Source: Candidatus Yonathbacteria bacterium (GTDB lineage Bacteria; Patescibacteriota; Minisyncoccia; Phycocordibacterales; UBA1550). Taken from it: a DNA stretch of 14,687 bases. Under the pieces are notes generated by a model. It worked only from the letters and a program-made list of their open reading frames with translations. It searched no databases and was not told the origin of the DNA. The translations under genes and the position numbers were made by a program. Each line of letters starts with the position of its first letter. The stretch's first letter is position 1. Shown here piece after piece: positions 1 through 14,280 of the stretch. The stretch lies in the NCBI GenBank assembly GCA_003489395.1, contig DNMN01000039.1, positions 1 to 14,687 on the forward strand, written 5' to 3'.

Positions 1-125
1 TCCATAAGATTTTGCTCAAACGCGGAAAGTTCAAACTTTTCTAGGAGTTCCTTCTTGTAAAGCTTGAGCCACGTGTTTTTGGGACAGAAAACATAATCAA
101 GAAATATGGTTTTTGAGATTATCAT
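1..125 (-). CDS. N-terminal fragment of a DUF2779-like (PD-(D/E)XK nuclease-type) protein
   Basis: A partial reading frame begins with ATG at 125 and runs off the window edge, giving 41 residues without a stop. The N-terminus reads MIISKTIFLDYVFCPKNTW and continues with a basic, Leu/Lys-rich helix. A short beta/helix start followed by Tyr-x-x-Cys-Pro-x-x-x-Trp (Cys14, Pro15, Trp19) is how DUF2779-family proteins and other Cas4/RecB-like nucleases commonly begin. In those families the early Cys can ligate an Fe-S cluster; that is family knowledge and is not shown here. The catalytic part lies outside the window, so the assignment rests on the N-terminal motif only. An extended -10 box (TGT TATAAT, 138-146) sits 12 bases before the ATG and supports this start. 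It is independent of the upstream 75-aa gene, whose terminator lies between them. Confidence 0.55.
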   Translation of the reverse strand, partial: MIISKTIFLDYVFCPKNTWLKLYKKELLEKFELSAFEQNLM

Positions 126-137
126 TTTGTAGGTCTT

Positions 138-146
138 ATTATAACA
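138..146 (-). promoter_or_regulatory. Extended -10 promoter of the DUF2779-like gene
   Basis: Read on the minus strand: TGT followed by a perfect TATAAT hexamer, ending 12 bases before the ATG at 125. A transcript starting about 7 bases downstream would have a leader of only about 5 bases. No SD site is present. The box overlaps the T-tract of the upstream gene's terminator. Confidence 0.55.
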
Positions 147-170
147 AAAAAACACCAGGTTAGGTGTTTT
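144..170 (-). terminator. Intrinsic terminator overlapping the stop of the 75-aa gene
   Basis: An 8-bp stem (149-156 with 163-170) and a 6-base loop are followed on the minus strand by a run of seven T (146-152). The last base pairs overlap the TAA stop at 169-171, so the terminator is built into the end of the gene. Confidence 0.65.
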
Positions 171-396
171 AGTCTGAATTGCGTGGAAGCCAATCCATTA
201 GTTTTTTTCTGTGCTGATCTAGTGACCAAAGGTCGCCATGAGTAAAGAGCGACGCGTGAGCGTCTCTAAACTTTTGTAGGAGCGCTCCAGTGACTCGAGG
301 CCACCCAGCAGGCATATTTTTGTTGTAGGATTCCAAGAATTCTGAAACTGGAATCAACACAGGCGCCTCCTTCATATTTTTCTTGTTTCCAATCAT
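169..396 (-). CDS. Small hypothetical protein, 75 aa
   Basis: I do not recognise a named family. The product is soluble, with no signal peptide or membrane segment. It has a basic N-terminus, a central Ser-Glu-Phe-Leu-Glu helix and a C-terminal half rich in His, Trp and Arg (for example HGDLWSLDQHRKKLMDWLP), which suggests a compact helical fold. Start: ATG at 396 is preferred because an extended -10 box ends 9 bases upstream; an internal ATG at 375 (residue 8) is the alternative, with only a weak purine-rich upstream sequence. The gene lies 32 bases after folD on the same strand, so it may also be transcribed by read-through. Its stop is embedded in a clear terminator, which supports it being a real gene. 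The tail of the protein looks conserved in style, but no function can be given. Confidence 0.6.
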   Translation of the reverse strand: MIGNKKNMKEAPVLIPVSEFLESYNKNMPAGWPRVTGALLQKFRDAHASLFTHGDLWSLDQHRKKLMDWLPRNSD

Positions 397-405
397 GTTC
401 TAATA

Positions 406-414
406 ATAATAACA
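406..414 (-). promoter_or_regulatory. Extended -10 promoter of the 75-aa gene
   Basis: On the minus strand TGT is followed by TATTAT, ending 9 bases before the ATG at 396. No SD site lies in between, so a nearly leaderless mRNA is implied. The surrounding TTA repeats make the exact register slightly ambiguous. Confidence 0.4.
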
Positions 415-428
415 CAAAAAATGAAGGA

Positions 429-1232
429 TTACAAGAGATTTCGTAATAGGCTAACAATAGTGATTGGACCGACTCCACCGGGGACTGGCGTCATAAAGGA
501 AGCTACTTTTTCGCACTCGGGGTCTATGTCGCCCACGAGTTTGCCAGCCTGTTCACTCGTGCCCGCGTCTATAAGTACAACTCCTTTTTTAATCATATTT
601 AGTTTAATGCCGTGCGGTACGCCCATCCCGGAAATAATAATGTCGGCATTTTTAAATAAAGAAAGTTTTTCTTCATCACTTGTTTTAATATCAACTACAT
701 CATGCGTAACTTTCATCCGCTTGAACATTAAATGTACCGGCTCCCCCACGAGTCTGCCATGACCTGCCACAACAATCTTTTTTCCTTTGAGTGAGCTGTT
801 GTGCGTCTCAAGTATTTCATGCACAGCCTGCGCTACTGGCGGAGTTTTGTTTATTTTTCCGTTTTCATAACTTTCTTTTGCGACCGTGCCTAGCACGTCA
901 ATGTCTTTGAGCGGTGGAATTGCGTCTAGCACCTGTTGTGTGTCTATCCCTTGCGTGAGGGGGAGCTGTACCACAATGCCGTCATAATCTTTCTCACCAA
1001 GCGCGCGGACTTCTTTTACTGCTTCGGCTGTGGTTTTTATGTTTGAATATTTTTTTACTTCCACAGAAATTCCAACTCGCTCCGCCACACGCGATTTCAT
1101 TTTTACAAATTGTTCTGTGGCTGTGTTCCCGCCAAATACCACAAAGCAAACTTTTTTCGGCGTAGAAAAAAGGAGCTCTGTTGCAAGCTTTTCTTCAAGA
1201 GTCTTTGCGATTTTGTTCCCATCAACAAGCAT
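429..1232 (-). CDS. folD: Bifunctional methylenetetrahydrofolate dehydrogenase / cyclohydrolase, divergent
   Basis: FolD interconverts 5,10-methylene-THF and 10-formyl-THF in the cytosol using NADP, supplying one-carbon units for purines and formyl-Met. The 267-aa length is slightly shorter than the usual 280-300. Visible landmarks are the catalytic lysine region (QFVKMKSR, Lys46 at the expected spacing), the VQLPL motif near residue 88, a NADP-binding GHGRLVGEP segment, the GKLVGDID segment and a C-terminal PVPGGVGPIT signature. Three signatures differ from textbook FolD: the conserved Tyr four residues before the lysine is Phe42; the KDVDGFH motif reads KDIDVLG; and the cofactor-loop GRSxxVG reads GHGRLVG. 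The start codon overlaps the cupin stop as TAATG, so translation is probably coupled and both share the promoter upstream of the cupin gene. Family assignment is firm; whether both activities remain is open. Confidence 0.92.
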   Translation of the reverse strand: MLVDGNKIAKTLEEKLATELLFSTPKKVCFVVFGGNTATEQFVKMKSRVAERVGISVEVKKYSNIKTTAEAVKEVRALGEKDYDGIVVQLPLTQGIDTQQVLDAIPPLKDIDVLGTVAKESYENGKINKTPPVAQAVHEILETHNSSLKGKKIVVAGHGRLVGEPVHLMFKRMKVTHDVVDIKTSDEEKLSLFKNADIIISGMGVPHGIKLNMIKKGVVLIDAGTSEQAGKLVGDIDPECEKVASFMTPVPGGVGPITIVSLLRNLL

Positions 1233-1618
1233 TATTCTGTCGTAACTCCGTCAAAGTGTTCCTCCCGTTCGTCAGCTTTGGTTTTATGCACAGTGCCGTC
1301 CTTGTGCTCAGCCGGCGAGTAAATACTATAAAGCTTTAAGTGTGTGCTGCCAGTGTTGATGACATTGTGTTTTGTGCCTTGTGGGATGACTACCGCAAAT
1401 CCGTCAGAGACATTGTGTTCCACTCCATCTAGAATTACTTTCCCTTCTCCTTCTTCAAAACGAAGAAATTGATCAAGGTGGTGCGTCTCCTCGCCAATTT
1501 CATCTCCCAGAGCGATGCTCATCAAAACAAGCTGGCTGTTTTTTGCAGTATAAAGTACGCGACGATAGTCTGTGTTCTCCAAAGTCGCTTTCTCAATATT
1601 TGAAATGTATCCTTTCAT
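1232..1618 (-). CDS. Cupin-domain protein, 128 aa
   Basis: A single-domain cupin (small beta-barrel) covers most of the protein. The first cupin motif is near residues 42-60 (GEETHHLDQF, with His46/His47 and Gln50 as likely metal ligands) and the second near 79-88 (PQGTKHNVIN, His84). The tail is rich in His, Lys and Asp. Cupins of this size bind a metal and may be isomerases, dioxygenases or sensors; the sequence does not reveal the substrate. It overlaps folD by one base (TAATG), so the two form an operon, but a functional link to folate metabolism is only suggested by that coupling. An extended -10 box ends exactly 6 bases before the ATG, supporting this start and a leaderless mRNA. Confidence 0.85.
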   Translation of the reverse strand: MKGYISNIEKATLENTDYRRVLYTAKNSQLVLMSIALGDEIGEETHHLDQFLRFEEGEGKVILDGVEHNVSDGFAVVIPQGTKHNVINTGSTHLKLYSIYSPAEHKDGTVHKTKADEREEHFDGVTTE

Positions 1619-1624
1619 AAGGAA

Positions 1625-1633
1625 ATTATATCA
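1625..1633 (-). promoter_or_regulatory. Extended -10 promoter of the cupin-folD operon
   Basis: On the minus strand TGA is followed by a perfect TATAAT with 6 bases (TTCCTT) before the ATG at 1618. Transcription would begin at or beside the A of the start codon. No SD site exists. Confidence 0.65.
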
Positions 1634-1649
1634 CATATAAATTTGCATG

Positions 1650-1681
1650 AAAAAAGACGGTCCTTTTTGGGGACCGTCTTT
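1650..1681 (-). terminator. Intrinsic terminator of the 102-aa gene
   Basis: An 11-bp perfect stem (1653-1663 with 1671-1681, core GACGGTCC/GGACCGTC), a 7-base loop and a minus-strand run of six T (1650-1655). It closes the 102-aa gene and insulates it from the cupin-folD promoter. Confidence 0.8.
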
Positions 1682-1705
1682 GGTTTTACTACGACCTCGC
1701 TCAGG

Positions 1706-2014
1706 TTAGGTGAGGTTTGCGGGAGCCTGCATCTTGTAGCCCATGCCGGTCAGGATCTGCACCGCTGCGACTTCGAACTCGGCTAGCGAGACGGAGAGCA
1801 CTGGACCGCCGGTGTTTTTGCGGAGGATCAGGGATTTAGCGATTGTGGCTGACTGCAAGCTGTCGACTTTCTGGCCTGTCGCCGTTTTTCCGTGATGGTG
1901 GTTCCACTTGTCTTCCGGGATATCCTGCGGTTTCATCGTGGCAGTAATGCCAGTGTCCAGCACGATTGGGACGATCTTGTTGGTTTGGTGGCTACCCTTT
2001 TTTTGGCTTTTCAT
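1706..2014 (-). CDS. Hypothetical protein, 102 aa, unusual codon use
   Basis: I do not recognise a family. The protein is basic at the N-terminus (KSQKKGSHQTNK), has a short His cluster (KWNHHHGKT, residues 36-44), no membrane segment, and a C-terminal half of alternating hydrophobic residues (PVLSVSLAEFEVAAVQIL). Its codons are strikingly C/G-ending: six of seven Ile codons are ATC and none ATA, whereas neighbours such as dinB use mostly ATT and ATA. It also has an SD-like GAGGG 9 bases before the ATG, while its neighbours have none. It is a self-contained unit with a terminator on each side (its own at 1650-1681, dinB's at 2070-2101). This combination may point to recent acquisition or to high expression. 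Confidence 0.7.
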   Translation of the reverse strand: MKSQKKGSHQTNKIVPIVLDTGITATMKPQDIPEDKWNHHHGKTATGQKVDSLQSATIAKSLILRKNTGGPVLSVSLAEFEVAAVQILTGMGYKMQAPANLT

Positions 2015-2023
2015 TTTTTAAAT

Positions 2024-2028
2024 CCCTC
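2024..2028 (-). promoter_or_regulatory. Shine-Dalgarno-like site of the 102-aa gene
   Basis: GAGGG on the minus strand, 9 bases before the ATG at 2014. A purine-rich SD site is exceptional in this window, and it supports the chosen start. I could not place a convincing -10 box for this gene. Confidence 0.45.
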
Positions 2029-2069
2029 GTAGTTATGGTTGAAAGAACATTCGCTTTTGCCCTCTCGGT

Positions 2070-2101
2070 AAAAAACGAAATCGGCCCGGATGGGTCGATT
2101 T
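2070..2101 (-). terminator. Intrinsic terminator of dinB
   Basis: A 10-bp stem with one G-T pair (2078-2087 with 2092-2101), a GGAT tetraloop on the plus strand, and a minus-strand run of six T (2070-2075) two bases beyond the stem. It lies about 50 bases after the dinB stop. Confidence 0.75.
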
Positions 2102-2152
2102 GCATATACTACACTACTATGGTTTTTATGTCAAATTTTGGGAAAAAGGGAG

Positions 2153-3397
2153 CTACAAAAACAGCAAATCGCGGTCAAGCTCGTCGGCATCAGTGCCGAG
2201 CTCTTTGTGGTCAAGTGCCTGCTTGGTTGAACCAAGGTAAACCACGCGTTTGCCAAGTTTGTTCTCCAAAAAATCAATCTGCTTGTGTATAAGGTCAAAT
2301 TTGTCGCCCTTTGCTGTGTCTCCAAACAAATCTGCTTGAGGCGCAAAATCGGCAGTGAGGGCGTCCAATGTTACGCCTGCAGTTCTGTACAAAATGCCTT
2401 TTGTATGAATTTTTTTAAACAACTCGCGCGCGACTGAAAGAGATATTTCTGGCGAGTTTGATGGCGATGGAAGAGTGGTTGAAGCCGATGCTATTTTGAA
2501 ATCATTTGTCTTTAGAAAAATAGAAATCTTTTTTGGAGTCAATTCGTAATGTCGCGCCTTTCTGCACGCATCCTCTATGTGTTTTGAAATCTGCGACCAC
2601 AGAAACGCTTTGTCATTTGTAGCAGGATGAAATGTTCGCGTTTTTTGAATGGAAGAATACGCGTTCTTTACTTCTGTGTTCACACCCATAACCAAAACGC
2701 TGTTTAGCTCCAGCCAAATTGCTTCATAAGGTTTTGATAGGCACTTTTTTACCCATAAGAGATCCTTCTCGCGAAAATCAAGCGCAGTTTTTGCGCCTCG
2801 GCGTATTAGGACATCTGCAGTTCTCGGTCCTATTCCCCACACTTTTCCGATAGGCACTTTGGCAAGAAAATCTCCCGCAGTGCTTGTGTCAATTATTGTC
2901 AGACCATTTGGCTTCACCCAGTTGGATGCAACTTTCGCGAGAACTTTTGTTGGCGCGAGACCAATGGACACCGAAAGTCCCAGCTCGTCCGCGATTTCCT
3001 TTTTAATTTTTTCAGCAATTTCTCTATAAGTTTTTTTTAGAGTTCTATCCAAACCAGTAACATCGGCAAAACATTCGTCAATGCTGTACTCCTCCACGCC
3101 ATACGCGTATCTGTTTACGATTTCAAACATCTTGCTGGAATACTCTACGTACGATTTGTAGTCGCCCGGAAGGACGACGACGTTTGGGAATTCTTTTTTA
3201 ATTTTAAATATCGGCATCCCACGCACAACGCCAAGCGCCTTTGCTTCATATGAAAGAGCTGAAACAATTCCTCTCTCCTCTCCTGTCACTACTGGCAAAC
3301 CCTTTAGCTTAGGATTTTTTGCGCATTCAACACCCACAAAAAACGCATCGCCGTCTATGTGCAAAATTACTTTATTTTTTGTGGCTACGGCGCTCAT
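2153..3397 (-). CDS. dinB: Y-family translesion DNA polymerase (DinB/UmuC type)
   Basis: This enzyme copies past damaged template bases and is loaded on the sliding clamp. The 414-aa product shows the palm metal ligands: HIDGD near residues 13-17 (Asp15) and YSIDE near 104-108 (Asp107, Glu108). It also has the SIGLAPTKVLAKVAS region (144-158), helix-hairpin-helix-like WGIGPRTADVL (187-197) and a C-terminal clamp-binding motif QADLF at 354-358, close to the consensus QLxLF. The text around GIVSALSYEAKALGV and the C-terminus recall UmuC as much as DinB, so the subfamily is uncertain. The frame is open back to 3454, but ATG at 3397 is preferred: a perfect extended -10 box lies 6 bases upstream, inside the longer version, and the conserved core begins soon after. 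The promoter overlaps the stop of the upstream VTT gene, so dinB can be transcribed separately. Confidence 0.92.
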   Translation of the reverse strand: MSAVATKNKVILHIDGDAFFVGVECAKNPKLKGLPVVTGEERGIVSALSYEAKALGVVRGMPIFKIKKEFPNVVVLPGDYKSYVEYSSKMFEIVNRYAYGVEEYSIDECFADVTGLDRTLKKTYREIAEKIKKEIADELGLSVSIGLAPTKVLAKVASNWVKPNGLTIIDTSTAGDFLAKVPIGKVWGIGPRTADVLIRRGAKTALDFREKDLLWVKKCLSKPYEAIWLELNSVLVMGVNTEVKNAYSSIQKTRTFHPATNDKAFLWSQISKHIEDACRKARHYELTPKKISIFLKTNDFKIASASTTLPSPSNSPEISLSVARELFKKIHTKGILYRTAGVTLDALTADFAPQADLFGDTAKGDKFDLIHKQIDFLENKLGKRVVYLGSTKQALDHKELGTDADELDRDLLFL

Positions 3398-3403
3398 TCG
3401 CCA

Positions 3404-3412
3404 ATTATACCA
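3404..3412 (-). promoter_or_regulatory. Extended -10 promoter of dinB
   Basis: On the minus strand TGG TATAAT is followed by TGGCGA and then the ATG at 3397, a 6-base gap. The box overlaps the TAA stop of the VTT-family gene (3405-3407). It decides the dinB start and implies a leaderless mRNA. Confidence 0.65.
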
Positions 3413-4043
3413 AATCCGAATGTGTCGTGCGGAACGCAACAATGATGACCACAAACAATATTCCTATGAGCCCAAAGAATTTCATAGTGTCGCCAAGCAA
3501 CACAGCCTCGCTCGCATATGTGGAAATAATAGCAAACGGCAACTCTGCTAGAAATGTAATAAATATGTATAGATTCAATGGGTAGCGAATGATGCCAAAT
3601 GCGTATCCCAGCTCGGCAGGCAAAGCAACACGCAAAAGCAGAGCGGTAGAAAAAGTCGTGTGTTTTTTAACCATACTGCTCCAATCATCAAGTTTTTCTT
3701 TAGACACAAAATATGAGACTGCCTTGTAGCCAAAGTAGCGTCCGATGAGATACGCAACGATGTCGCCAATGAGCCATCCAACGAGCAAAAAAATTATAGT
3801 AGGTATAGGCCCCCAAATTAATGTCGCGATTGGTACAAGTGGGATGTTTGTTAGCGGGCTGACAAGCGCGGCAAGAGCTGATGTTATAACAAAGACAAAA
3901 ATCGCGAGGATCTCATTTTCTACGGCGAGCGTATTTAGGTATCCCGCGATGGTATAAAAAGCGCTCTGAAGAACGCTTGAATACCAAAATAGAAATGCAA
4001 TTATTATTGCAACACAAAGGAAAATGATGAGACGCTTATTCAT
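3405..4043 (-). CDS. VTT/DedA-like integral membrane protein
   Basis: A 212-aa membrane protein with an N-terminal hydrophobic segment (residues about 4-22) and several more (about 45-62, 65-90, 130-150, 155-180, 185-205). The central part resembles the VTT domain (formerly SNARE-associated, TVP38/DedA): a re-entrant-like stretch with conserved prolines (SPLTNIPLVPIATLIWGP) followed by GWLIGDIVAYLIGRYFG, matching the family's Gly-x3-Gly and Tyr-x-x-Gly-Arg pattern. Family members act as lipid scramblases or flippases and in membrane homeostasis; the substrate here is unknown. It lies just before dinB with only 7 bases between the stop and the dinB start. An extended -10 box ends 7 bases before its ATG. 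Confidence 0.8.
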   Translation of the reverse strand: MNKRLIIFLCVAIIIAFLFWYSSVLQSAFYTIAGYLNTLAVENEILAIFVFVITSALAALVSPLTNIPLVPIATLIWGPIPTIIFLLVGWLIGDIVAYLIGRYFGYKAVSYFVSKEKLDDWSSMVKKHTTFSTALLLRVALPAELGYAFGIIRYPLNLYIFITFLAELPFAIISTYASEAVLLGDTMKFFGLIGILFVVIIVAFRTTHSDLV

Positions 4044-4050
4044 ATACTCA

Positions 4051-4059
4051 AGTATACCA
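4051..4059 (-). promoter_or_regulatory. Extended -10 promoter of the VTT-family gene
   Basis: On the minus strand TGG TATACT is followed by 7 bases (TGAGTAT) and the ATG at 4043. There is no SD site. Confidence 0.55.
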
Positions 4060-4086
4060 AATGTGTACAGCGGTTCACGCTCATTG

Positions 4087-4230
4087 CTGGGAGGCTTGGA
4101 CGCTTCGCTGTCTCACTCCTGGGAAACCCACGGTTTTCCCAATCCTTCCTCCACGGCGAATCAGCTGATTCGCGTCTTGGACGTAGACTAAATCTTCCCC
4201 GACCCCCTTCCCGTTCGATTCCAAGCCACG
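4087..4230. other. GC-richer non-coding segment carrying copies of the tRNA-Gln 3' end
   Basis: The gap between the VTT-family gene and dnaX (4044-4422) holds no plausible gene. It contains tRNA-Gln, its terminator and this segment, which is visibly richer in G+C than its flanks. Positions 4087-4100 repeat, in the same orientation, the last 14 bases of tRNA-Gln (4286-4299). Positions 4213-4227 are a 15-base inverted copy of its T-arm and acceptor bases (4292-4306). Between them are a perfect 18-base palindrome at 4156-4173 (GCGAATCAGCTGATTCGC) and an imperfect hairpin around 4120-4141. One minus-strand frame is open for about 50 codons but has no clear start or family. It could be an attachment-site scar, a degraded tRNA locus or a structured RNA. 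I cannot choose among these from sequence alone. Confidence 0.5.
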
Positions 4231-4234
4231 AAAG

Positions 4235-4283
4235 TTACAACTAAAAAAACACTCTTATGAGAAGAGTGTTTTTTTAGTTGTAA
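4235..4283 (-). terminator. Long hairpin terminator of tRNA-Gln
   Basis: A perfect 22-bp stem (4235-4256 with 4262-4283) with a 5-base loop. Seven T occur within each arm, and the stem starts 2 bases after the tRNA 3' end. It works on paper in both directions, but position and orientation fit the tRNA. Confidence 0.7.
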
Positions 4284-4285
4284 AA

Positions 4286-4356
4286 CTGGGAGGCTTGGAA
4301 TCGAACCAAGATTGACGGCTTCAAAGGCCGCTGTCCTACCATTAGACGATCTCCCA
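4286..4356 (-). tRNA. tRNA-Gln, anticodon UUG
   Basis: The 71-nt cloverleaf reads on the minus strand as follows: 7-bp acceptor, UC at positions 8-9, D-arm GTC/GAC with loop TAATGGTAG, anticodon stem GCGGC/GCCGT, loop CTTTGAA giving anticodon TTG, 4-base variable loop, T-arm CTTGG/CCAAG with loop TTCGATT. U1-A72, discriminator G73 and C9 are typical of tRNA-Gln. The 7-66 pair is an A-C mismatch. CCA is not encoded (TTTT follows G73), so a CCA-adding enzyme is needed. In bacteria without GlnRS this tRNA is charged through Glu-tRNA-Gln and GatCAB; the window does not show which route applies. Confidence 0.93.
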
Positions 4357-4422
4357 ATATTCTATTCAATTTTCTGCACATTCACTGACGCACAATACAC
4401 CAAAAAGTGTGATTCGGCAATA

Positions 4423-5457
4423 TTACTTTCCAGAAATTTTTAATAGGGTTAGCTCAAGCGCGAGCCCTGGCACGACTGCTACTCGTACGCTTTCGTACGC
4501 TTTCAAAACTTCTGCGAGTTCTTTTGACGTAAGAGTTTGAATTGCGTTTTTTGCGAGGTCTTCTATGAGCGCTACGTCTTCCACAGGAAAATTTTCCGAC
4601 ATTTCTTTTCGCGAATTCGCAACAAAACGAAACATCATCACTGCGCGCATTTTGCGAAGTAGCAAGTCTAGAAAAACCTTCTCTTCCACTCCTCTCTCTA
4701 CTGCACTTTGTAAAGCGGTTAATCCCGCTTCCACATCACGCGCAACAATCGCCTTTAGAAATGAGTTCACCAAACGGCTGTCCGGCGCGCCAGTAACCGC
4801 TTCCACTTCTTGCGCTGAAATCTTTTTATCAGAAGACGATGCAATCACTTTTTGTAAAATCCCAAGCGTATCCCGAAATGATCCGTCGCCAAGAAGCGCA
4901 ATGAGGTCGGCGGATGCGGGCTCTAACGAGTAACCTTCTTTTTTTGAAACAGTTTCAACAAGAGTTTTTAATGTCGGTTGTGAAGGTTTGTCAAAACGGA
5001 AACTCTGACAACGAGAAACAATAGTTTCAGGAATCTTTTCTTCATCTGTAGTGGCGAGAATAAATACCACATGTTTTGGAGGCTCCTCAAGCGTTTTCAA
5101 GAGCGCGGGAAACGCCTCACGCGACAGCATATGCGCTTCGTCTATTATGTACACCTTATATTTAGAGCGCATCGGTACTGTGTGCACCGCATCACGAAGC
5201 GCGCGAATGTCATCAATACCGCGATTGGAAGCCGCATCTATTTCATAAATGTCGTCATCATGCGCGCCTATAGCTCGCGCGAAAATACGCGCGATAGAAG
5301 TTTTGCCAGTACCGCGAGAGCCTGAAAAAAGGTATGCGTGCCCAATATTACCAGCTTTGATAGCCCCAAGAAGCGTTTTAATGACCTGCTCCTGCCCTAT
5401 TACCTCCTCAAAGGATTTTGGGCGATATTTTGTATAAAGTGCGAGGTTGGAGGACAT
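4423..5457 (-). CDS. dnaX: DNA polymerase III clamp-loader subunit (gamma-like, short)
   Basis: DnaX is the AAA+ motor subunit that opens the sliding clamp and loads it at primer-template junctions. The 344-aa product has Walker A GSRGTGKT at 46-53, Walker B VYIIDEAH at 102-109, sensor 1 LATTDE near 134-139 and the SRC arginine-finger motif at 148-150, followed by the helical lid and collar domains. Two parts are missing. The zinc-binding insertion with four Cys that normally lies between Walker A and EIDAAS is replaced by a short AIGAHDDDIY. The C-terminal tau domains that bind the helicase and polymerase are absent (E. coli tau is about 640 aa, gamma about 430). An extended -10 box ends 9 bases before the ATG. 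dus lies 20 bases upstream on the same strand without a terminator, so read-through from dus is likely too. Confidence 0.93.
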   Translation of the reverse strand: MSSNLALYTKYRPKSFEEVIGQEQVIKTLLGAIKAGNIGHAYLFSGSRGTGKTSIARIFARAIGAHDDDIYEIDAASNRGIDDIRALRDAVHTVPMRSKYKVYIIDEAHMLSREAFPALLKTLEEPPKHVVFILATTDEEKIPETIVSRCQSFRFDKPSQPTLKTLVETVSKKEGYSLEPASADLIALLGDGSFRDTLGILQKVIASSSDKKISAQEVEAVTGAPDSRLVNSFLKAIVARDVEAGLTALQSAVERGVEEKVFLDLLLRKMRAVMMFRFVANSRKEMSENFPVEDVALIEDLAKNAIQTLTSKELAEVLKAYESVRVAVVPGLALELTLLKISGK

Positions 5458-5466
5458 AGTAAGGAC

Positions 5467-5475
5467 AGTATACCA
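5467..5475 (-). promoter_or_regulatory. Extended -10 promoter of dnaX
   Basis: On the minus strand TGG TATACT lies in the 20-base gap between dus and dnaX, with 9 bases before the ATG at 5457. Predicted leader 2-3 bases; no SD site. Confidence 0.55.
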
Positions 5476-5477
5476 GA

Positions 5478-6479
5478 CTAAATCGTCTTCAAAAAATCGC
5501 GCGCAATTTTCTCCACCTCATCTGCATTTTTTGCATCCATCAGATGCACACGAAGTTCTTTCGCTCCATCAAAGCCGTGCACGTACGCTTTGTAATGCTT
5601 TTTCATAATGGCAAAGTTTTTAACATCACCGAGAAGTTTTTCAAATAGATGCGTGTGCTCTATAAGTATTTCAAATTTCTCCGCGAGAGTCGGTGGCGCT
5701 CCACGCTCGCGGTCAAAGAGCCACGGCGTGCCAAACATTGCGCGTCCTAGCATCACACCATCCGCACCGGTTGCGCGCGCTTTTTCACTCGCATCTACTA
5801 GGTCTCTCACATCTCCATTGCCGATGATAAGTGTGCCTGTGCCTTCGGCGAGCTTCACAGCGCGCGCGACTTCCTCCCAGCGCGCAGGAACGAGCGAGAG
5901 CTCTTTTCGTGTACGCGCGTGCACAGTAATCACCGCAGGCTTTGTTTCCAAAATCGCCCCAAGCCATTCCTCCAGATTTTCCTTGTTGTAACCAATGCGA
6001 GTTTTTACAGAAACTGGAAGTCCACCTGCACCATCCATTACCGCGCGAATTATCTCCTGAGCGTGTTTTATATCTTTCATATGCGCGGCGCCTGCTCCCT
6101 GTTTCTCTATACTTCTATCTGGGCAACCCATATTGATATCAATGCCGTCAAAACCAAGCTCTTTAATTAGCTCCGCTGTTTTTTTCATATGCTCTGGGTT
6201 TGAACCAAAGATTTGCGCGACGATTGGATGCTCATTTTTACCAAACGCAAGATCACGTTTTAAAACCTCACGTCCCGCGCTACAAAGTCCGTCCGCGGAA
6301 ACAAACTCCGTCCAAAAAACATCCGGACCACCGCCTTTCTCACCGTGTCTGCTGTACTTTGCAATCATCTGCCTAAATGCCTGGTCCGTAACATCCGCCA
6401 TTGGCGCCGACACAAAAAAAGGCTTTGGCAAGTCTGCCCAAAATCCCATTATTGGTTTTTGTGATTCGTCTTTCTTCAT
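5478..6479 (-). CDS. dus: tRNA-dihydrouridine synthase (DusB-like)
   Basis: This FMN enzyme reduces specific uridines in tRNA D-loops to dihydrouridine using NADPH. The 333-aa product is a TIM barrel with FMN-contact segment FFVSAPMADVTDQAFR near 21-36, catalytic DINMGCP at 114-120 (Cys119), SVKTRIG, TVHARTR, a phosphate-binding GNGDV, GVMLGRAMFGTPWLF and a C-terminal helical domain containing HYKAYV. All key residues are present and the length is normal. The frame stays open to 6530, but ATG at 6479 is preferred: it gives the normal Dus N-terminus, and an extended -10-like box lies 7 bases upstream inside the longer version. It overlaps no neighbour at this start; ftsQ ends 34 bases upstream. 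The sequence does not decide whether it targets the DusA, B or C position. Confidence 0.9.
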   Translation of the reverse strand: MKKDESQKPIMGFWADLPKPFFVSAPMADVTDQAFRQMIAKYSRHGEKGGGPDVFWTEFVSADGLCSAGREVLKRDLAFGKNEHPIVAQIFGSNPEHMKKTAELIKELGFDGIDINMGCPDRSIEKQGAGAAHMKDIKHAQEIIRAVMDGAGGLPVSVKTRIGYNKENLEEWLGAILETKPAVITVHARTRKELSLVPARWEEVARAVKLAEGTGTLIIGNGDVRDLVDASEKARATGADGVMLGRAMFGTPWLFDRERGAPPTLAEKFEILIEHTHLFEKLLGDVKNFAIMKKHYKAYVHGFDGAKELRVHLMDAKNADEVEKIARDFLKTI

Positions 6480-6486
6480 TACACGC

Positions 6487-6495
6487 ACTCTATCA
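6487..6495 (-). promoter_or_regulatory. Extended -10-like promoter of dus
   Basis: On the minus strand TGA TAGAGT (four of six consensus bases plus the TG) ends 7 bases before the ATG at 6479. Weaker than the others, but at the same distance. Confidence 0.4.
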
Positions 6496-6513
6496 CAATT
6501 TGTGCGTTCATTT

Positions 6514-7359
6514 CTACTGTTCAAACCCAAAAATGACTTTATTGCCGAAACGCATATCTATATATTGAAGCTTCTTTTTTGGAGCAATGTTATTTGGAAA
6601 CTGAGTTAAAATCGCCTTCTCCAAATTATTTACTAAATTTGCAGGATCTGAGGTATCTTTAAAACGCATTACAACATCTGCGAGAAAAGGATGTTTGGCG
6701 CTCGTGTGTATAGTGACCTCAATTTCATCTTCTGATTTTATATAGATGCGAAATGGCTTGCCGATGTTCTCGCGAAGAAGCTTCGTAAAACCGTTTGCTA
6801 TGGCAAATCTGTCGTACGGAAGCGACGCGCGAAGTGGCTCACCAGCTTTTTTTTCTACAAGCTTTCCGTATACTTCTATATACACGCCTTTTGAAAACTC
6901 CGGCGCTTTGTCAAACACAAATCCGCCCTCATCTATAAACCAGCAATCTTTTGAGCTTGGTTCCTCCACGCACCATAGCGCGTATGGTTTACGCTCAGAA
7001 ATATTTATAGTGATTGTGTGCTCATCATCTCGAACTGCTGAAACACTCGCAATACGAGGAAAAGTGTGTAGAAGCGTTTGATTTATTTCACCTACTGGAA
7101 ACAAATGGCTATTGTTTCTTGCATACACAAGGAAATAATTTCCAATTATTTTATCAAGCGCAATCGCGCGAACCTCGTCCGTAGAAACCGCGTTCGCGCC
7201 TTCCACATTTATCTGAATAATCTGCCATTTTTTATTATGCGATACTCCCCCACCTGCGACAAAAAATATAAGTCCAAGAAGAACAAGAATAATAAACCTG
7301 CTAAACCAGATTTGAGATTGTTCACGGAGACGGAGAAAAATATTCGTCAAACGTGTCAT
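6514..7359 (-). CDS. ftsQ: FtsQ/DivIB-like cell-division protein
   Basis: The 281-aa protein has a short basic cytoplasmic N-terminus (residues 1-20), one transmembrane segment (about 21-37, FIILVLLGLIFFVAGGG) and an external part. The latter begins with a POTRA-like domain (about 45-115): INVEGANAVSTDEVRAIA, then a Phe-Pro-Arg-Ile turn and an ISERKPYALW strand, a typical FtsQ/DivIB layout. A beta domain (about 120-250) follows. FtsQ links FtsA/FtsZ-side proteins with FtsL/FtsB and septal peptidoglycan synthesis. The gene is not in a visible division-and-cell-wall cluster: serS lies 9 bases upstream and dus downstream, so it is probably in the serS transcript. Assignment rests on architecture and POTRA features; FtsQ sequences are poorly conserved. 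Confidence 0.75.
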   Translation of the reverse strand: MTRLTNIFLRLREQSQIWFSRFIILVLLGLIFFVAGGGVSHNKKWQIIQINVEGANAVSTDEVRAIALDKIIGNYFLVYARNNSHLFPVGEINQTLLHTFPRIASVSAVRDDEHTITINISERKPYALWCVEEPSSKDCWFIDEGGFVFDKAPEFSKGVYIEVYGKLVEKKAGEPLRASLPYDRFAIANGFTKLLRENIGKPFRIYIKSEDEIEVTIHTSAKHPFLADVVMRFKDTSDPANLVNNLEKAILTQFPNNIAPKKKLQYIDMRFGNKVIFGFEQ

Positions 7360-7368
7360 ATAAATTAT

Positions 7369-8634
7369 TTATCCAATCTTTTCCTTACCTCCCATATATG
7401 GACGAAGGACTTCAGGGATTGTTATAGAACCGTCAGCATTTTGGTAATTTTCCACAAGTGGCACCAAAATGCGTGGCATCGCAATAGCAGTATTGTTGAG
7501 AGAGTGCGCAAAGCGAAGCTTGCCTTCGTTGTCTTTGTAGCGAATATTCAAACGTCGTGTTTGGAAATCGTGGAAGTACGAAGCTGAGTGAGTCTCTCTG
7601 TATGTATTTTGAGAAGGCACCCATGCTTCTATGTCGTACTTTTTTACTTGTCCGAGTCCGAGGTCACCACCGCAGTTCAAAACAACGTGATATGGAATAC
7701 CGAGCTTCTGCATAAGCTTCTCGCTATTCTCAGTGAGGTACTCGTGGAACTTTACGCTCTCCTCGTGGCTCGCCTCGCACAAAATCACCTGCTCCCATTT
7801 GAAAAATTCGTGCACACGAATGAGGCCCTTTGTGTCCTTGCTGTGACTTCCAGCCTCTCGTCTGAAACTTGTTGAGAATGATAAATATTTTTTAGGAAGG
7901 TCTGAAAGTGACAATACCTCGTCCATATGGTAACCCATCGTTCCGACCTCTGCGGTTCCTGCAAGGAAATCCCCGTCCTGAGTTTTGTAGAGGTCCTCCT
8001 CTCCTTGTGGTAAAAATCCTGTGCCCACAAGTGGCGCGCGACGCACAAGAGATGGCACCATCATTGGAATAAAGTTCTCTTTTGAAAGTTCGTTCAATAC
8101 GAATTGCGAAAGCGCAAAAACAAGACGCGCTCCGTCGCCCTTCAAAACATATCCACGAAAGCCAGCAACTTTTGTTCCGCGTTCAAAGTCAGCCATATCG
8201 TGTTTTTCAAAAAGCTCAATATGGTCTTTTGGAGTAAACGAGAATTTAGGAATCGTGCCCCATGTGCGAACCTCCACATTGTCAGAGTCTTCCTTCCCCT
8301 CTGGAACAGAGACATCAGGAAGATTTGGCACCTGAACCATGAGCGCCTGCCACACGTGCATTGCTGCGGTGAGTTCAAGTTCTTTCGCCTGAAGGATGTC
8401 CTTCAGTGACTTGGACTCAGCTATAAGCTTTTCGCGCGCCTCTACATTTTCCGCGCGTGGCACGCTGTCTGCAATCTCGTTTTGCTTGCCACGCATTGCT
8501 TCCACCTCGGCTAAAATTGCCTTGCGGTTGTCATCGGCGCTCAAAAGCTCCTGCACGTCAAAAGCAATGTTCTTTTTCTGCGCCGCTTCCTTTACAAGTT
8601 CCGCATTCTCGCGAATGAATTTAATATCTAACAT
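7369..8634 (-). CDS. serS: Seryl-tRNA synthetase
   Basis: Class II synthetase that charges tRNA-Ser (and makes Ser-tRNA-Sec where present). Length 421 aa, normal. An N-terminal antiparallel coiled coil (about 1-105) contacts the tRNA long variable arm. The catalytic domain shows GTAEV at 226-230, motif 2 FRREAGSHSKDTKGLIRVHEF (257-277), a WVPSQNTYRETHSAS segment, DFQTRRLNIRY (356-366) and motif 3 ending at Arg388 then ILVPLVENYQ. Motif 3 reads NTAIAMPR where many bacterial enzymes have GSGLAVGR, and the serine-site ExSS element reads ETHSAS. These look like lineage variants rather than damage. It is divergent from dprA, and an extended -10 box ends 9 bases before the ATG. ftsQ follows after 9 bases. 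Confidence 0.95.
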   Translation of the reverse strand: MLDIKFIRENAELVKEAAQKKNIAFDVQELLSADDNRKAILAEVEAMRGKQNEIADSVPRAENVEAREKLIAESKSLKDILQAKELELTAAMHVWQALMVQVPNLPDVSVPEGKEDSDNVEVRTWGTIPKFSFTPKDHIELFEKHDMADFERGTKVAGFRGYVLKGDGARLVFALSQFVLNELSKENFIPMMVPSLVRRAPLVGTGFLPQGEEDLYKTQDGDFLAGTAEVGTMGYHMDEVLSLSDLPKKYLSFSTSFRREAGSHSKDTKGLIRVHEFFKWEQVILCEASHEESVKFHEYLTENSEKLMQKLGIPYHVVLNCGGDLGLGQVKKYDIEAWVPSQNTYRETHSASYFHDFQTRRLNIRYKDNEGKLRFAHSLNNTAIAMPRILVPLVENYQNADGSITIPEVLRPYMGGKEKIG

Positions 8635-8643
8635 ATATGGGCA

Positions 8644-8652
8644 AGTATAGCA
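8644..8652 (-). promoter_or_regulatory. Extended -10 promoter of serS
   Basis: On the minus strand TGC TATACT, with 9 bases before the ATG at 8634. It lies back to back with the dprA promoter, 4 bases away. Confidence 0.55.
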
Positions 8653-8656
8653 GACG

Positions 8657-8665
8657 TGATAGAAT
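8657..8665 (+). promoter_or_regulatory. Extended -10 promoter of dprA
   Basis: TGA TAGAAT, ending 10 bases before the ATG at 8676. The upstream in-frame ATG at 8664 overlaps the box itself, so a transcript from here would exclude it. This decides the dprA start. Confidence 0.5.
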
Positions 8666-8675
8666 GAGTAAAATT

Positions 8676-9566
8676 ATGAGCTCAGCACATTCGTATACTA
8701 TTAGTACACTTTCACCTGAGGAATTTCCAAAAGTGCTTTTAGAAATTCCTCAGGTTCCAGAAAAGCTTTTCGTTGTAGGCGAGCTACCCGACCCAAAGGA
8801 CTACTACTATTTGTCTGTCGTTGGCTCACGCAAGTACACAAGCTACGGTAAAGAAGCATGCGAGCGAATAATAAAAGGACTCGCTGGGTATCCCATTTGC
8901 ATTGTTTCTGGTCTTGCGATGGGGATTGACGGCATTGCTCACAGAGCTGCGCTTGATGCTGGGCTTCGCACTGTTGCGGTACCGGGCTCTGGTCTTGACC
9001 AAGCAGTCATCTATCCACGCACACACCTCGGCCTCGCAAAAGAGATTGTAGAAAATGACGGCGCGCTTCTTTCTGAATATGAACCAAACTTTCGCGCGAC
9101 TCCGTGGAGCTTCCCTCAGCGCAACAGGATAATGGCGGGGCTCTGCCAAGGCGTGCTAATTATAGAAGCCGAAGAAAAGTCTGGCACCTTAATCACCGCA
9201 CGCATGGCGCTCGACTACAACAGAAATGTATTCGTAGTCCCTGGCCCAATTTTCTCCGCGACCTCAAAAGGCACAAACAATCTTTTGAGACAAGGTGCAA
9301 CACCCATCACCTCTGCAAAAGATTTACTTGAAGAGATTGGTTTCGTTGAGCAGACCTTTGGAACCCTTGATCTCACACTTTTTACACCCGAAGAACAAGC
9401 AGTGCTCATACTATTAGATGAACCACGCGAACGCGAAGAAATAATCGCATCGCTTGATACACTGCCATCACAAACGCTTTCAATTCTAACCGTGCTTGAA
9501 ATAAAAGGAGTGATTCAGGAGCGAATGGGCAAAATTGAGCGAATATTAAAAAACAGCACGGTCTAG
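8676..9566 (+). CDS. dprA: DNA-processing protein DprA (Smf)
   Basis: DprA binds incoming single-stranded DNA during natural transformation and loads RecA on it. The 296-aa product has the Rossmann-like DprA core: SVVGSRKYTSYG (47-58), SGLAMGIDGIAHRAAL (78-93), AVPGSGLDQAVIYPRTH (101-117), LLSEYEP (131-137), PWSFPQRNRIMAGL (143-156) and SGTLITARMAL then VFVVPG (169-190). A C-terminal winged-helix-like part follows (about 238-292). The N-terminal SAM-like extension of longer homologues is absent. In-frame ATGs at 8637 and 8664 exist; 8676 is chosen because the -10 box lies over them. The stop codon sits in the loop of a hairpin that serves the convergent gene. Natural competence would fit bacteria that depend on outside DNA or nucleotides, but no other com genes are in the window. 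Confidence 0.93.
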   Translation: MSSAHSYTISTLSPEEFPKVLLEIPQVPEKLFVVGELPDPKDYYYLSVVGSRKYTSYGKEACERIIKGLAGYPICIVSGLAMGIDGIAHRAALDAGLRTVAVPGSGLDQAVIYPRTHLGLAKEIVENDGALLSEYEPNFRATPWSFPQRNRIMAGLCQGVLIIEAEEKSGTLITARMALDYNRNVFVVPGPIFSATSKGTNNLLRQGATPITSAKDLLEEIGFVEQTFGTLDLTLFTPEEQAVLILLDEPREREEIIASLDTLPSQTLSILTVLEIKGVIQERMGKIERILKNSTV

Positions 9567-9588: not shown

Positions 9589-9909
9589 TTACTCAAGCCC
9601 CTTAATTGTACTGAGACAATTTTCCTCTACGTTATAAATATACGTGGAGACAACAATTTTCCCATCATGAGGCTTCAATACTGTTCCATTGTAATATCGT
9701 TGGATTCTAAACTTCCATAATGAAGCCCAGGCCAGACGACTGCTCGAGACAAGCATTTGAATATTGTGTCGTCCTGGTTGCCCAGGAATTCCAAACGAAA
9801 TATTTGCGTCTACCAGCATCCCAACTCTGTATTGTGCTTTAAAGAACACATCATAGGAAACCAGTGAGGCAAGTATCAGAACAGCCACAACTAAAGAAAT
9901 GTTACTCAT
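9589..9909 (-). CDS. Small single-span membrane or secreted protein, 106 aa
   Basis: No family recognised. One hydrophobic segment at about residues 4-23 (ISLVVAVLILASLVSYDVFF) could be a signal anchor. The rest is likely external: beta-rich, with VGMLVDANISFGIPGQPGRHNIQM, a Trp/Tyr-rich middle and a single Cys near the C-terminus. Features supporting a real gene are a strong SD (AGGAGG, 7 bases before ATG), an extended -10 box further up and a matching terminator. The SD-led leader of about 30 bases sets it apart from the leaderless housekeeping genes. It faces dprA tail to tail and is divergent from topA. Confidence 0.65.
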   Translation of the reverse strand: MSNISLVVAVLILASLVSYDVFFKAQYRVGMLVDANISFGIPGQPGRHNIQMLVSSSRLAWASLWKFRIQRYYNGTVLKPHDGKIVVSTYIYNVEENCLSTIKGLE

Positions 9910-9916: not shown

Positions 9917-9922
9917 CCTCCT
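9917..9922 (-). promoter_or_regulatory. Strong Shine-Dalgarno site of the 9589-9909 gene
   Basis: AGGAGG on the minus strand, 7 bases before the ATG at 9909. It fixes the start and is the strongest SD in the window. Confidence 0.75.
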
Positions 9923-9956: not shown

Positions 9957-9995
9957 TCTTATTTAATTACCGTCAATATTGAGCCACTGGACAAT

Positions 9996-10025
9996 TTGCA
10001 AAATAAAATGGTTCGTAGTACTAAT
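9996..10025 (+). promoter_or_regulatory. Possible topA promoter
   Basis: TTGCAA (9996-10001) and ACTAAT (10020-10025) with an 18-base spacer; the -10 ends 8 bases before the ATG at 10034. No TG extension. A weak AGAGG also lies 3 bases before the ATG and could act as an SD if the transcript starts earlier. Confidence 0.3.
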
Positions 10026-12287: not shown

Positions 12288-12292
12288 GGAGG
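12288..12292 (+). promoter_or_regulatory. Shine-Dalgarno site of the 12298-12618 gene
   Basis: GGAGG, 5 bases before the ATG at 12298. A TATAGT hexamer at 12261-12266, two bases after the topA stop codon, could be its -10, giving a leader of about 25 bases. Read-through from topA is the alternative. Confidence 0.6.
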
Positions 12293-12297: not shown

Positions 12298-12618
12298 ATG
12301 TTTGAAAAACTGGGTACAACAAGTTTGAGCTTTGCATGGCTTGGCTCAGTACTGATTTTCCTAGCAATAGTTTGTATTGTTTTTGCTTTTTACCTTCTTT
12401 ACAAAATCTGGACCGCGAACCCTGAGCTCCTCAAAGAATACCGAAAAATGAGAGAACTTTGTGATCTTGCAAATAGCGGACACAAAGGTGCACGCCTGCA
12501 GTGTGAGCATAATCCTCTAATAAACAAGGGTATGCGCCTTTGTGAGGATGGTGTGAACGTAGAGTCGACTTACTCAGTTCCTATGTATTTATTTTACCAA
12601 ATATGGGGTCATTATTGA
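12298..12618 (+). CDS. Small single-span membrane protein, 106 aa
   Basis: No family recognised. The N-terminal 12 residues are followed by one long hydrophobic segment (about 13-37, AWLGSVLIFLAIVCIVFAFYLLY). The rest is a soluble part rich in Leu, Glu, Lys and Arg (NPELLKEYRKMRELCDLANSG), with Cys at about 55, 69 and 82 that might form disulfides or bind metal. The C-terminus is aromatic (YLFYQIWGHY). It has a good SD site and its own strong terminator, so it is likely a real, separately ended gene. Like the other 106-aa protein across topA it is SD-led and membrane-anchored, but I see no clear sequence similarity between the two. Confidence 0.65.
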   Translation: MFEKLGTTSLSFAWLGSVLIFLAIVCIVFAFYLLYKIWTANPELLKEYRKMRELCDLANSGHKGARLQCEHNPLINKGMRLCEDGVNVESTYSVPMYLFYQIWGHY

Positions 12619-12681: not shown

Positions 12682-12687
12682 CATAAT
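12682..12687 (+). promoter_or_regulatory. Possible -10 box of rel
   Basis: CATAAT, five of six consensus bases, ends 8 bases before the ATG at 12696, in the gap after the terminator. There is no TG extension; TTGCTT 15 bases upstream could be a weak -35. No SD site. Confidence 0.4.
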
Positions 12688-12695: not shown

Positions 12696-14192
12696 ATGTT
12701 TACTCCTAAAAGCTACAAGAACTGTCCGACCGCCACAGAGATAATCGCTCTACTAAAAAAGCATACAAAAGAGGATGCGCTACTCATAGAAAAAGCATAC
12801 GATTTTTCCAAGAAGGCGCACGAGGGTCAAAAACGCTATTCCGGCGAACCGTATTTTTGCCACCTAGCGAATGTGGGAAGCTATCTCGCAGCTATAAATG
12901 TGGACGCGGCTACTGTCGCCGCGGGACTTCTTCATGACACGGTAGAAGACGTTGGTACTTCACCAAAAATTATTGAGGAGGAATTTGGTAAGGAAATCCT
13001 AACCCTTGTGGAAGGAACGACAAAACTTGGTAAATTGAAATACCATGGTGTGGAACGCCACGTTGAAAGTCTTCGCAAATTTTTCATTGCGATGTCGCAT
13101 GATATTCGCGTGCTTCTAATCAAGCTCGCTGATCGCCTGCACAATATTCAAACACTGGAACACGTGCCAGCGGAAAAAAGAAAACGAATTGCTCTAGAAA
13201 CTCTGGAAATACACGCTCGTCTTGCTGATAGATTTGGTATGGGAAAATGGAAAGCAATTTTTGAAGATTCGGCTTTTCCATACGCCTTTCCTGAAGAATA
13301 TGAAAAAGTAGTCGCCATCATAAAGACAAAAAGAATTGCTGATGAAAAATATGCGGAAAAGATGCATCACTCTATTCAGAAAGAACTTGTTGCAAACGGC
13401 ATCAAGAACGCGCGTGTGGACTACCGCGTAAAAAATCTTTTCAGTCTTTGGAAAAAGCTCAAGAGAAAAGATATGGACCCAGACAAGGTGTACGACATCC
13501 TCGCTGTGCGCGTTATTGTAAAAACTGTGGAGGACTGTTATCGCGCGCTTGGTATTATTCACAAGCACTGGATACCTGTTCCGGGGCGAATCAAGGATTA
13601 CATTGCTAGTGAAAAAGCAAACGGGTATCGCTCGCTTCACACCACTATTTTTCGCGGTGACGGAGGTATTATTGAAATACAAATTCGCACAGAGGAAATG
13701 CACGAGGAAGCGCAGTATGGTATCGCCTCGCATCTGTCGTACAAAGAAAAAAACGGTTCAAACGGAGACCTAGACAAAAATATGGCGTGGGTAAAGGAGC
13801 TCGCAAAATGGCAAAAGACAGTTGCCACATCAGATGAATTTTTGGAGCACCTTAATATGGATTTCTTCAAGAATCGAGTTTTCGTATACACACCAAAGGG
13901 CGACGTTATTGACCTTCCGGAAGAGTCCTGCCCGATTGATTTTGCGTACGCAATTCACTCAAACATAGGCGACCATGTTTCCAGCGCGAAAATAAACGGC
14001 AAACTTGTTTCTATAGATACAAAACTTAAAAACGGCGACATTGTTGAGATAGAAACAAAAGAAAGCGCGAGCCCAAAAAGAAAATGGTTGGATTACACAA
14101 AGACCACAATGGCAAAACGCCATATTCGCAACTACTTGGACAAAACTAGCGCGATAGGAGCAATAGCGCAAAAACTTTTTGGAAAGAAATAA
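12696..14192 (+). CDS. rel: RelA/SpoT homologue, bifunctional (p)ppGpp synthetase/hydrolase, short form
   Basis: Makes and degrades the alarmone (p)ppGpp. The 498-aa protein has an HD hydrolase domain (about 30-190): His56, HDTVED at 80-85 and the LADRLHN element (144-150) are intact. A synthetase domain (about 235-350) follows, with VDYRVKNLFSLWKKL, YDILAVRV, GRIKDYIA (297-304), ANGYRSLHTT, IEIQIRTEEMHEEAQYGIASH. The Arg-x-Lys-Asp motif (298-301) is the form seen in bifunctional Rel/SpoT enzymes rather than the Glu-x-Asp-Asp of RelA. A TGS domain (about 392-455) comes next, and the protein ends about 40 residues later. The helical, zinc-finger and ACT regulatory domains of full-length (700+ aa) enzymes are missing. 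A small substitution is SEKANGY where PKxNGY is usual. Confidence 0.95.
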   Translation: MFTPKSYKNCPTATEIIALLKKHTKEDALLIEKAYDFSKKAHEGQKRYSGEPYFCHLANVGSYLAAINVDAATVAAGLLHDTVEDVGTSPKIIEEEFGKEILTLVEGTTKLGKLKYHGVERHVESLRKFFIAMSHDIRVLLIKLADRLHNIQTLEHVPAEKRKRIALETLEIHARLADRFGMGKWKAIFEDSAFPYAFPEEYEKVVAIIKTKRIADEKYAEKMHHSIQKELVANGIKNARVDYRVKNLFSLWKKLKRKDMDPDKVYDILAVRVIVKTVEDCYRALGIIHKHWIPVPGRIKDYIASEKANGYRSLHTTIFRGDGGIIEIQIRTEEMHEEAQYGIASHLSYKEKNGSNGDLDKNMAWVKELAKWQKTVATSDEFLEHLNMDFFKNRVFVYTPKGDVIDLPEESCPIDFAYAIHSNIGDHVSSAKINGKLVSIDTKLKNGDIVEIETKESASPKRKWLDYTKTTMAKRHIRNYLDKTSAIGAIAQKLFGKK

Positions 14193-14255: not shown

Positions 14256-14280
14256 ACACACAAAAAAAGAGTAATAAAAT

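Follow-up and report, generated by a model that had tools for sequence, protein, structure and literature searches.

The DNA analysed here, referred to as the window, comprises bases 1-14,687 of contig C7 in the 639-kb, 62-contig assembly of a Candidatus (Ca.) Yonathbacteria genome (hereafter the source genome), which belongs, within the Patescibacteria or candidate phyla radiation (CPR), to a group that we take to be the Paceibacteria. The closest named genomes, as judged by the serS gene of the window, are a Nomurabacteria metagenome-assembled genome (MAG; 90% identity) and Yonathbacteria MAGs (71-81%). Pfam matches were obtained for folD, a cupin gene (Cupin_2), dinB (IMS), a VTT-domain gene (VTT_dom), dus (Dus) and an ftsQ-type gene, and the names dnaX, serS, dprA, topA and relA/spoT come from the original prediction or from reading of the open reading frames (ORFs). 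This prediction had stated that nine starts of the window are directly preceded by an extended -10 promoter box and lack a Shine-Dalgarno (SD) site. All nine boxes are present, exactly at the starts and at the gaps that had been named (Table 1; the gap is the number of bases between the end of the -10 hexamer and the start codon), and the 20 bases preceding each of the nine starts contain no AGGA, GGAG or GAGG. The boxes of serS and dprA stand back to back within the 41 bases that separate the two start codons. One of the nine starts opens a reading frame that leaves the window, and another belongs to a 75-amino-acid (75-aa) ORF that is uncertain as a gene, because it has neither a Pfam match nor a homologue among the loci compared.

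Table 1. Promoter-like boxes and SD sites preceding starts in the window.
Feature	Sequence	Position	Strand	Gap	Start concerned
Extended -10	TGTTATAAT	138..146	-	12	gene 125..1, running off the window
Extended -10	TGTTATTAT	406..414	-	9	75-aa ORF 396..169
Extended -10	TGATATAAT	1625..1633	-	6	cupin gene 1618..1232
Extended -10	TGGTATAAT	3404..3412	-	6	dinB 3397..2153
Extended -10	TGGTATACT	4051..4059	-	7	VTT-domain gene 4043..3405
Extended -10	TGGTATACT	5467..5475	-	9	dnaX 5457..4423
Extended -10	TGATAGAGT	6487..6495	-	7	dus 6479..5478
Extended -10	TGCTATACT	8644..8652	-	9	serS 8634..7369
Extended -10	TGATAGAAT	8657..8665	+	10	dprA 8676..9566
Weaker -10	CATAAT	12682..12687	+	8	relA/spoT 12696..14192
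SD	AGGAGG	9917..9922	-		106-aa ORF 9909..9589, contrasting SD-led class
SD	GGAGG	12288..12292	+		106-aa ORF 12298..12618; TATAGT about 30 bases upstream

We applied a strict criterion, namely TGn followed by a TAnnnT hexamer with at least 4 of 6 matches to TATAAT, ending at a gap of 6-12. Seven of the 16 window starts examined miss it: folD, ftsQ, topA, relA/spoT, a 102-aa ORF and the two 106-aa ORFs of Table 1. The two box-less genes folD and ftsQ lie close behind their upstream genes, and the weaker CATAAT of relA/spoT reaches p = 0.06 against internal ATGs. The 102-aa ORF (1706-2014, minus strand) has GAGG 10 bases before its ATG and shows no Pfam match and no homologue among the loci compared.

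The same criterion was applied to 336,618 bases (~337 kb) of the assembly, in which genes were called with a home-made hexamer coding scorer that is blind to upstream signals. Genes cut off by a contig end, and starts lying too near one, were excluded. Boxes preceded 47 of 253 called starts but only 7 of 1,511 internal in-frame ATGs of the same genome (Fisher p = 3e-34), and the enrichment persisted when the window was left out (41/242 versus 6/1,447; p = 6e-30). The prediction that the motif should be enriched genome-wide at -6 to -12 has thus stood up strongly in this sample. When any TATAAT-like box at gap 5-12 was accepted, 53 of 210 starts had one, as compared with 28 of 1,390 internal ATGs and with 11 of the same 210 starts at gap 25-32. 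Composition shuffles gave 17.2 ± 4.0 boxes versus 54 observed. Leaderless (TA-led) genes are recognized by a sigma-70-type -10 box whose end lies about 6-9 bases upstream of the start codon and which exceeds such controls in frequency. Chance could in principle produce TATAAT-like words in AT-rich intergenic DNA, and the upstream regions are indeed AT-rich, a few boxes turning up at most distances. Yet the internal ATGs, the shuffles, the windows further upstream and the outgroup loci all refute this explanation, as does the recurrence of boxes at homologous starts (see below), so that we give it practically no weight.

A search by expectation maximization (EM) without prior knowledge of the motif, carried out on the unambiguous starts of the source genome (those without another in-frame ATG near; 74 of 253 were dropped), returned GnTATAAT with a total weight of 0.61. 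Since this weight sums all positions, we speak of a large share of genes, not of most. By posterior, 73 of 179 unambiguous starts had the box at gap 6-9, and the log-likelihood was 143 versus 27 for shuffled sequence. The same motif emerged from 72 related serS loci (1.09 Mb), with a weight of 0.47, 262 of 685 starts at gap 6-9 and a log-likelihood of 583 versus 59. It was also recovered from a further sample of the order (weight 0.32) and, clearly, from the genome G025 alone. Other classes that keep the anti-SD yielded a blend of -10 and purine-rich letters, and small samples of Escherichia coli K-12, a Deinococcus deserti plasmid and the outgroup (Planctomycetes and Chloroflexi loci) yielded purine-rich, SD-like motifs (log-likelihoods 34, 53 and 40 versus 28, 31 and 30 when shuffled).

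Among the box-aligned starts, 55-62% have TG before the hexamer. The statement that no consistent -35 element is seen was right in that this element is weak, but it missed a TT peak that appears at the canonical 17-base spacer when the starts are aligned on the -10 box (T frequencies of 63% and 45% in the source genome, 49% and 48% in the relatives). High-posterior starts were ATG in 78 of 78 cases in the source genome, as compared with 104 of 118 low-posterior ones; in the relatives, the figures were 281/289 and 459/490. The arrangement had also been called the default. It is indeed the commonest recognizable signal, but the box is found by posterior at only about four in ten of all starts (105/253 in the source genome, 377/946 in the relatives). 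That the box fixes start codons has the support of one example, dprA, for which it designates the ATG at 8676 and the coding-score caller the ATG at 8637.

The position of the box has a sharp limit. The counts of extended -10 boxes at gaps 0-5, 6, 7, 8 and 9 were 0, 15, 4, 8 and 8 at the unambiguous starts of the source genome, 3, 69, 30, 16 and 21 in the relatives, and 2, 18, 7, 8 and 8 in the further order sample, that is 0 versus 35, 3 versus 136 and 2 versus 41 for gaps 0-5 versus 6-9. Summed over these sets, 102 boxes lie at gap 6 and 3 at gap 5. A -10 hexamer spans positions -12 to -7. At gap 6, the first transcribed base therefore falls on the A of the AUG, whereas at gap 5 the AUG would be cut. 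This one-base cliff is the best sign that the constraint comes from transcription starting at the start codon and not from base composition.

These findings suggest, with a probability that we put at roughly 0.88, that a sigma-70-type extended -10 box abuts the starts of a large share of the genes and that these are leaderless, being initiated on a 5'-AUG without SD pairing. RNA polymerase would begin on the A of the AUG or up to three bases earlier, leaving leaders of 0-3 bases at about four in ten starts (by posterior) and at more than half of the divergent genes of the source genome, and ribosomes would begin on the 5'-terminal AUG. The original proposal of leaderless transcription is thus supported by the enrichment, by the cliff at gap 6 and by SD frequencies at background, the start of transcription being deduced from the position of the promoter.

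The arrangement of the genes bears on how often this mode would be used. In the source genome, divergent genes have an expected leaderless fraction of 0.57, tandem genes separated by more than 20 bases one of 0.41 and those with shorter spacing one of 0.33; the relatives give 0.48, 0.38 and 0.27. For genes that overlap the upstream gene or lie at most 5 bases from it, the fraction amounts to 0.17-0.19 in the relatives and to 0.17-0.26 when the source genome and the relatives are considered. Closely packed genes must start by another route, perhaps coupling, and for those overlapping or abutting their upstream gene, re-initiation or coupling is the probable mechanism.

Boxes recur at homologous starts. 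In the 72 related loci, serS has a TATAAT-like box at gap 6-9 in 32 (16 with TG), as compared with 4 at gap 2-5 and 5-11 in each of four seven-base windows further up, and an SD core in 2; the 8 outgroup loci had 0 boxes at gap 6-9 and 4 SD sites. For other genes, at most 14 homologues each were inspected by eye, the best box being sought only at gaps 5-12. Among the homologues listed, a box with at least 4 matches stands at gap 6-9 in 12/14 for dnaX, 10/13 for dprA and 4/5 for relA. Three of the seven dus homologues listed (L041, L042 and L043) have TAGAGT at gap 7, and relA/spoT has CATAAT, CATAGT or CACAAT at gap 6-7 in L041, L042 and L044. The ftsQ and topA homologues listed did not show a standard box, and none were listed for dinB and the VTT-domain gene. 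An element TTTGCAAAA lies upstream of topA, whose start has no standard -10 box, at 9995-10003 of the window and, by eye, in 7 of the 14 homologues listed (L041, L042, L044, L045, L058, L066 and L110); it may be another type of promoter or the site of a regulator.

SD sites are as rare as expected by chance at the unambiguous starts of the source genome (9/184, or 4.9%, versus 13 in the control window), which thus has the low genome-wide SD fraction that is a trait of SD-scarce organisms. The corresponding numbers were 28/67 versus 4 in the outgroup, 77/711 versus 43, hence above background, in the related loci, and 4/38 versus 2 in the genome G018. The background level in the source genome is likely due to loss of the anti-SD, as seen in its relatives of the same genus and order. 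In five congeners, the 3' end of the 16S rRNA after helix 45 reads GTGAATCAATTCAAA in place of TGGATCACCTCCTT, and in other members of the order a GTGGAATATTTCAAA-like sequence replaces it. Among 28 genomes with a 16S match, 20 loci were fetched, of which one (L139) has no readable tail. CCTCC is absent from all 19 readable tails of genus and order, and from three further tails of the order, making 22/22. Because the 16S gene of the source genome itself is not in the assembly, the loss of its anti-SD is deduced from these five congeners and from the order. The replacement of the CCUCC tail would leave the ribosomes of genus and order without an anti-SD, and this is probably how leaderless starts would have become the commonest recognizable signal.

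We considered the possibility that this is an ordinary mixed genome as in Actinobacteria, in which leaderless and SD-led genes are both used and an anti-SD, borne by a second rRNA operon or by another exon, has been overlooked. A minority of SD-led genes with peaked spacing, conserved in two families (see below), would fit this, as would the absence of the 16S gene from our assembly and the fact that loci were fetched from only 20 of the 28 genomes matched for 16S. However, the genome G017, which is complete in one contig, has a single 16S match and this lacks CCTCC, and ordinary starts show SD at background. The intact TGGATCACCTCCTT occurs in 4 of the 41 genomes of genus and order but at no 16S end (three of the occurrences have similar flanks which, by eye, appear to code for protein on the opposite strand; the fourth does not). 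ACCTCC lies within 1,000 bases past the altered tail in only 1 of 19 loci of the order (L121, 184 bases on), the search having gone as far as the loci reach, which is about 350-420 bases in two of them. We consider this explanation very unlikely. A relocated anti-SD inside the 16S rRNA was also looked for; a GACCTCCACC motif that four loci contain corresponds to the 5' part of the molecule, around E. coli position 305, and this candidate was rejected.

Outside the order, the tails of the class are graded, ranging from intact to entirely replaced (16S loci L181-L188): G108 has an intact ATCACCTCC, and G121, G218, G080 and G148 have ATCACTTCTT, AACACCTATT, AACACTTAAA and AACAATTAAA, respectively. 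In a phylum-wide draw, a canonical tail (at most 1 mismatch) was recorded for 2 of the 13 other genomes of class or order and for 109 of the 178 that belong to other classes. The latter figure is a lower bound, since several unmatched genomes carry a CCTCC tail of variant sequence and others lack a 16S. In one of the two, G209, the canonical tail (C6:265-305) lies on a different contig from the main 16S and is possibly a contaminant of that assembly. The share of extended boxes is 12-20% in the source and order samples, in which SD lies at background or close to it. Both signals occur side by side in other classes that keep the anti-SD: of 131 starts, 13 have an extended -10 at gap 6-9, where 1.6 are expected, and 44 have SD (control 10). 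G108, with its intact tail, had 6 of each among 54 starts (0.6 boxes expected; SD control 2), and 97 starts of other class members had 6.2% extended boxes and 12.4% SD (control 7 starts). The class outside the order is thus mixed in its start signals. In our reading, leaderless genes would have come first, the anti-SD becoming dispensable afterwards.

Several observations weigh against the view that a large share of the genes is leaderless. In addition to the unassembled 16S gene, EM found no -10-like motif in G017 alone and was hardly above its shuffle in G018, and it returned no start-bound -10 for the class members outside the order or for G108. The D. deserti plasmid stretch, taken as a leaderless positive control, proved uninformative (0/27). 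A clear box is missing at about 60% of starts. Over all starts, A is over-represented at -3 (0.46) and -6 (0.52), which could mean that some of the genes are leadered and initiate in a Kozak-like manner. Genes of Flavobacteriia and other Bacteroidetes are leadered, with Kozak-like A positions. Transcription might likewise start further upstream here and the AT-rich stretch before the AUG serve as a Kozak-like landing site, its likeness to a -10 box being incidental or due to secondary promoters. Such leadered genes would agree with the A excess, with the box-less starts and with the lack of an anti-SD in the relatives, which is shared by some Flavobacteriia (PMC10783764). Yet the motif goes beyond mere A or T richness, being a complete TGnTATAAT accompanied by a weak -35 at the 17-base spacing, the composition shuffles fell far short of the observed number of boxes, and the cliff between gaps 5 and 6 has no reason in a leadered model, which we therefore find quite unlikely.

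A further point on this side is the minority of small SD-led genes, which would be unexpected if nothing reads SD. The source genome has 23 intergenic ORFs of at least 40 aa with AGGAG or GGAGG 4-9 bases before the ATG, and their spacing has a spike at gap 6 (12 for AGGAG). The control words give 6 (reverse complement), 6 (GGTGG/GTGGT) and 12 (AGAGG/GGAGA). An excess was also found in G017 (100% complete; 13 versus 0 in the control) and in G004 and G009 together (5 versus 0), but not in G018 (2 versus 1) or G025 (1 versus 3). In the source genome, where a looser filter gives 26 ORFs, the TATAAT-like boxes of these genes are in most cases 24-70 bases away from the start, and the 0-15 range contains none. 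Codon use in these ORFs is atypical, and several such genes have, by eye, hydrophobic N-termini. One family, between topA and relA, has the SD in the window, in L042 and in both L041 copies, and a weaker AAAGGA in L044. Another, of 75 aa, has members in 5 of 16 genomes from the genus and keeps the SD in the source genome, G011, G004 (whose 16S lacks CCTCC) and G002; its two distant matches in G014 did not show one.

Contamination was considered as the origin of these genes. Two of them are in the contig of the window, and one family shows synteny, its place being between topA and relA in L041, L042 and L044, so that they are not simply contaminants, though their codon use is atypical. CsrA was rejected as a general reader of GGA, there being no match in the source genome and a score over the cut-off in only 3 of the 41 genomes. 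In G017, whose 16S tail lacks CCTCC, the csrA gene itself (C1:610578-610757, L255) is preceded by AGGAGG. The SD-led class may consist of old or foreign signals, or be read by a protein, by an anti-SD in another RNA or by other cells. The specific proposal that an order without anti-SD keeps SD-led, leadered small genes whose SD is read by a separate RNA, a protein or the ribosomes of another cell, for example a host, seems to us unlikely.

We also looked at translation factors in the 41 genomes. Initiation factor 3 (IF3), which acts against leaderless mRNAs in E. coli, was found in 38, the source genome being among the three without a match, so that the initiation factors give no special support to leaderless initiation and count rather on the other side. 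S1-domain matches were obtained in all 41 genomes but stayed below the S1 cut-off, which was reached in 2 of 14 control genomes. The cut-off for bS21 was reached in none of the 41 (5 weak matches), an absence that says little because only 6 of the 14 control genomes have bS21. The curated cut-off for Era was also reached in 0/41, which speaks for the main reading. This protein binds GAUCA and CCUCC of the 16S tail and is reported to be lost in most CPR bacteria (PMC10582724).

Box positions of this kind are known from TA-led genes of Actinobacteria and Deinococcus-Thermus, in which TAnnnT lies about 10-12 bases before the start, is preceded by TG in several low-GC genomes and is read as a sign of leaderless genes, with shares of ~20% and ~40%, respectively (Zheng et al. 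2011, PMC3160421). The word 'candidate' is absent from the main text of that survey. In contrast to those phyla, SD is here at background at ordinary starts and the relatives have no anti-SD. Ca. Wolfebacteria and Ca. Campbellbacteria are presumably Paceibacteria as well. Both are listed, with Absconditabacteria and Peribacter, among SD-scarce genomes that lack CCUCC (PMC10783764). The likeness to the present case extends to the missing anti-SD and the scarcity of SD, but that section deals with single genomes and shows no -10 boxes or leaderless starts, whereas all readable tails of an order are altered here and leaderless promoters appear to go with them. Flavobacteriia and other Bacteroidetes likewise make little use of SD and have lost or masked the anti-SD (PMC10783764), but here a promoter box abuts many starts. 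Among archaea, leaderless mRNAs combined with anti-SD loss are described for Nanoarchaeia (PMC10783764), and Haloferax mRNAs are mostly leaderless (PMC3986360); these systems use archaeal factors and a TATA box about 30 bases upstream (PMC3160421), not a bacterial sigma-type -10 box. Among the papers listed in a literature search, none ties leaderless genes to Patescibacteria or joins them with anti-SD loss, a weak negative. Leaderless bacterial genes as such are known; what appears to be new is the combination, across an order of the CPR, of many such genes with background SD and loss of the anti-SD.

If this reading is correct, a large uncultured group of very small bacteria runs many housekeeping genes leaderless, with ribosomes unable to use SD pairing. 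This would touch the annotation of gene starts in metagenome-assembled genomes and the expression of such genes in E. coli. It would also bear on models of how SD initiation is lost, for which the class offers its graded tails, and on ideas about minimal translation systems, and the SD-led minority would become a testable puzzle.

Two other features of the window were observed. A tRNA-Gln (TTG) gene lies at 4285-4357 on the minus strand, and the stretch at about 4085-4150 repeats, by eye, its GGGAGGCTTGGA end. Downstream of relA/spoT, two near-perfect inverted repeats (14201-14254 and 14278-14343), with arms of 26 and 32 nucleotides and loops of 2 nucleotides, are probably bidirectional terminators.

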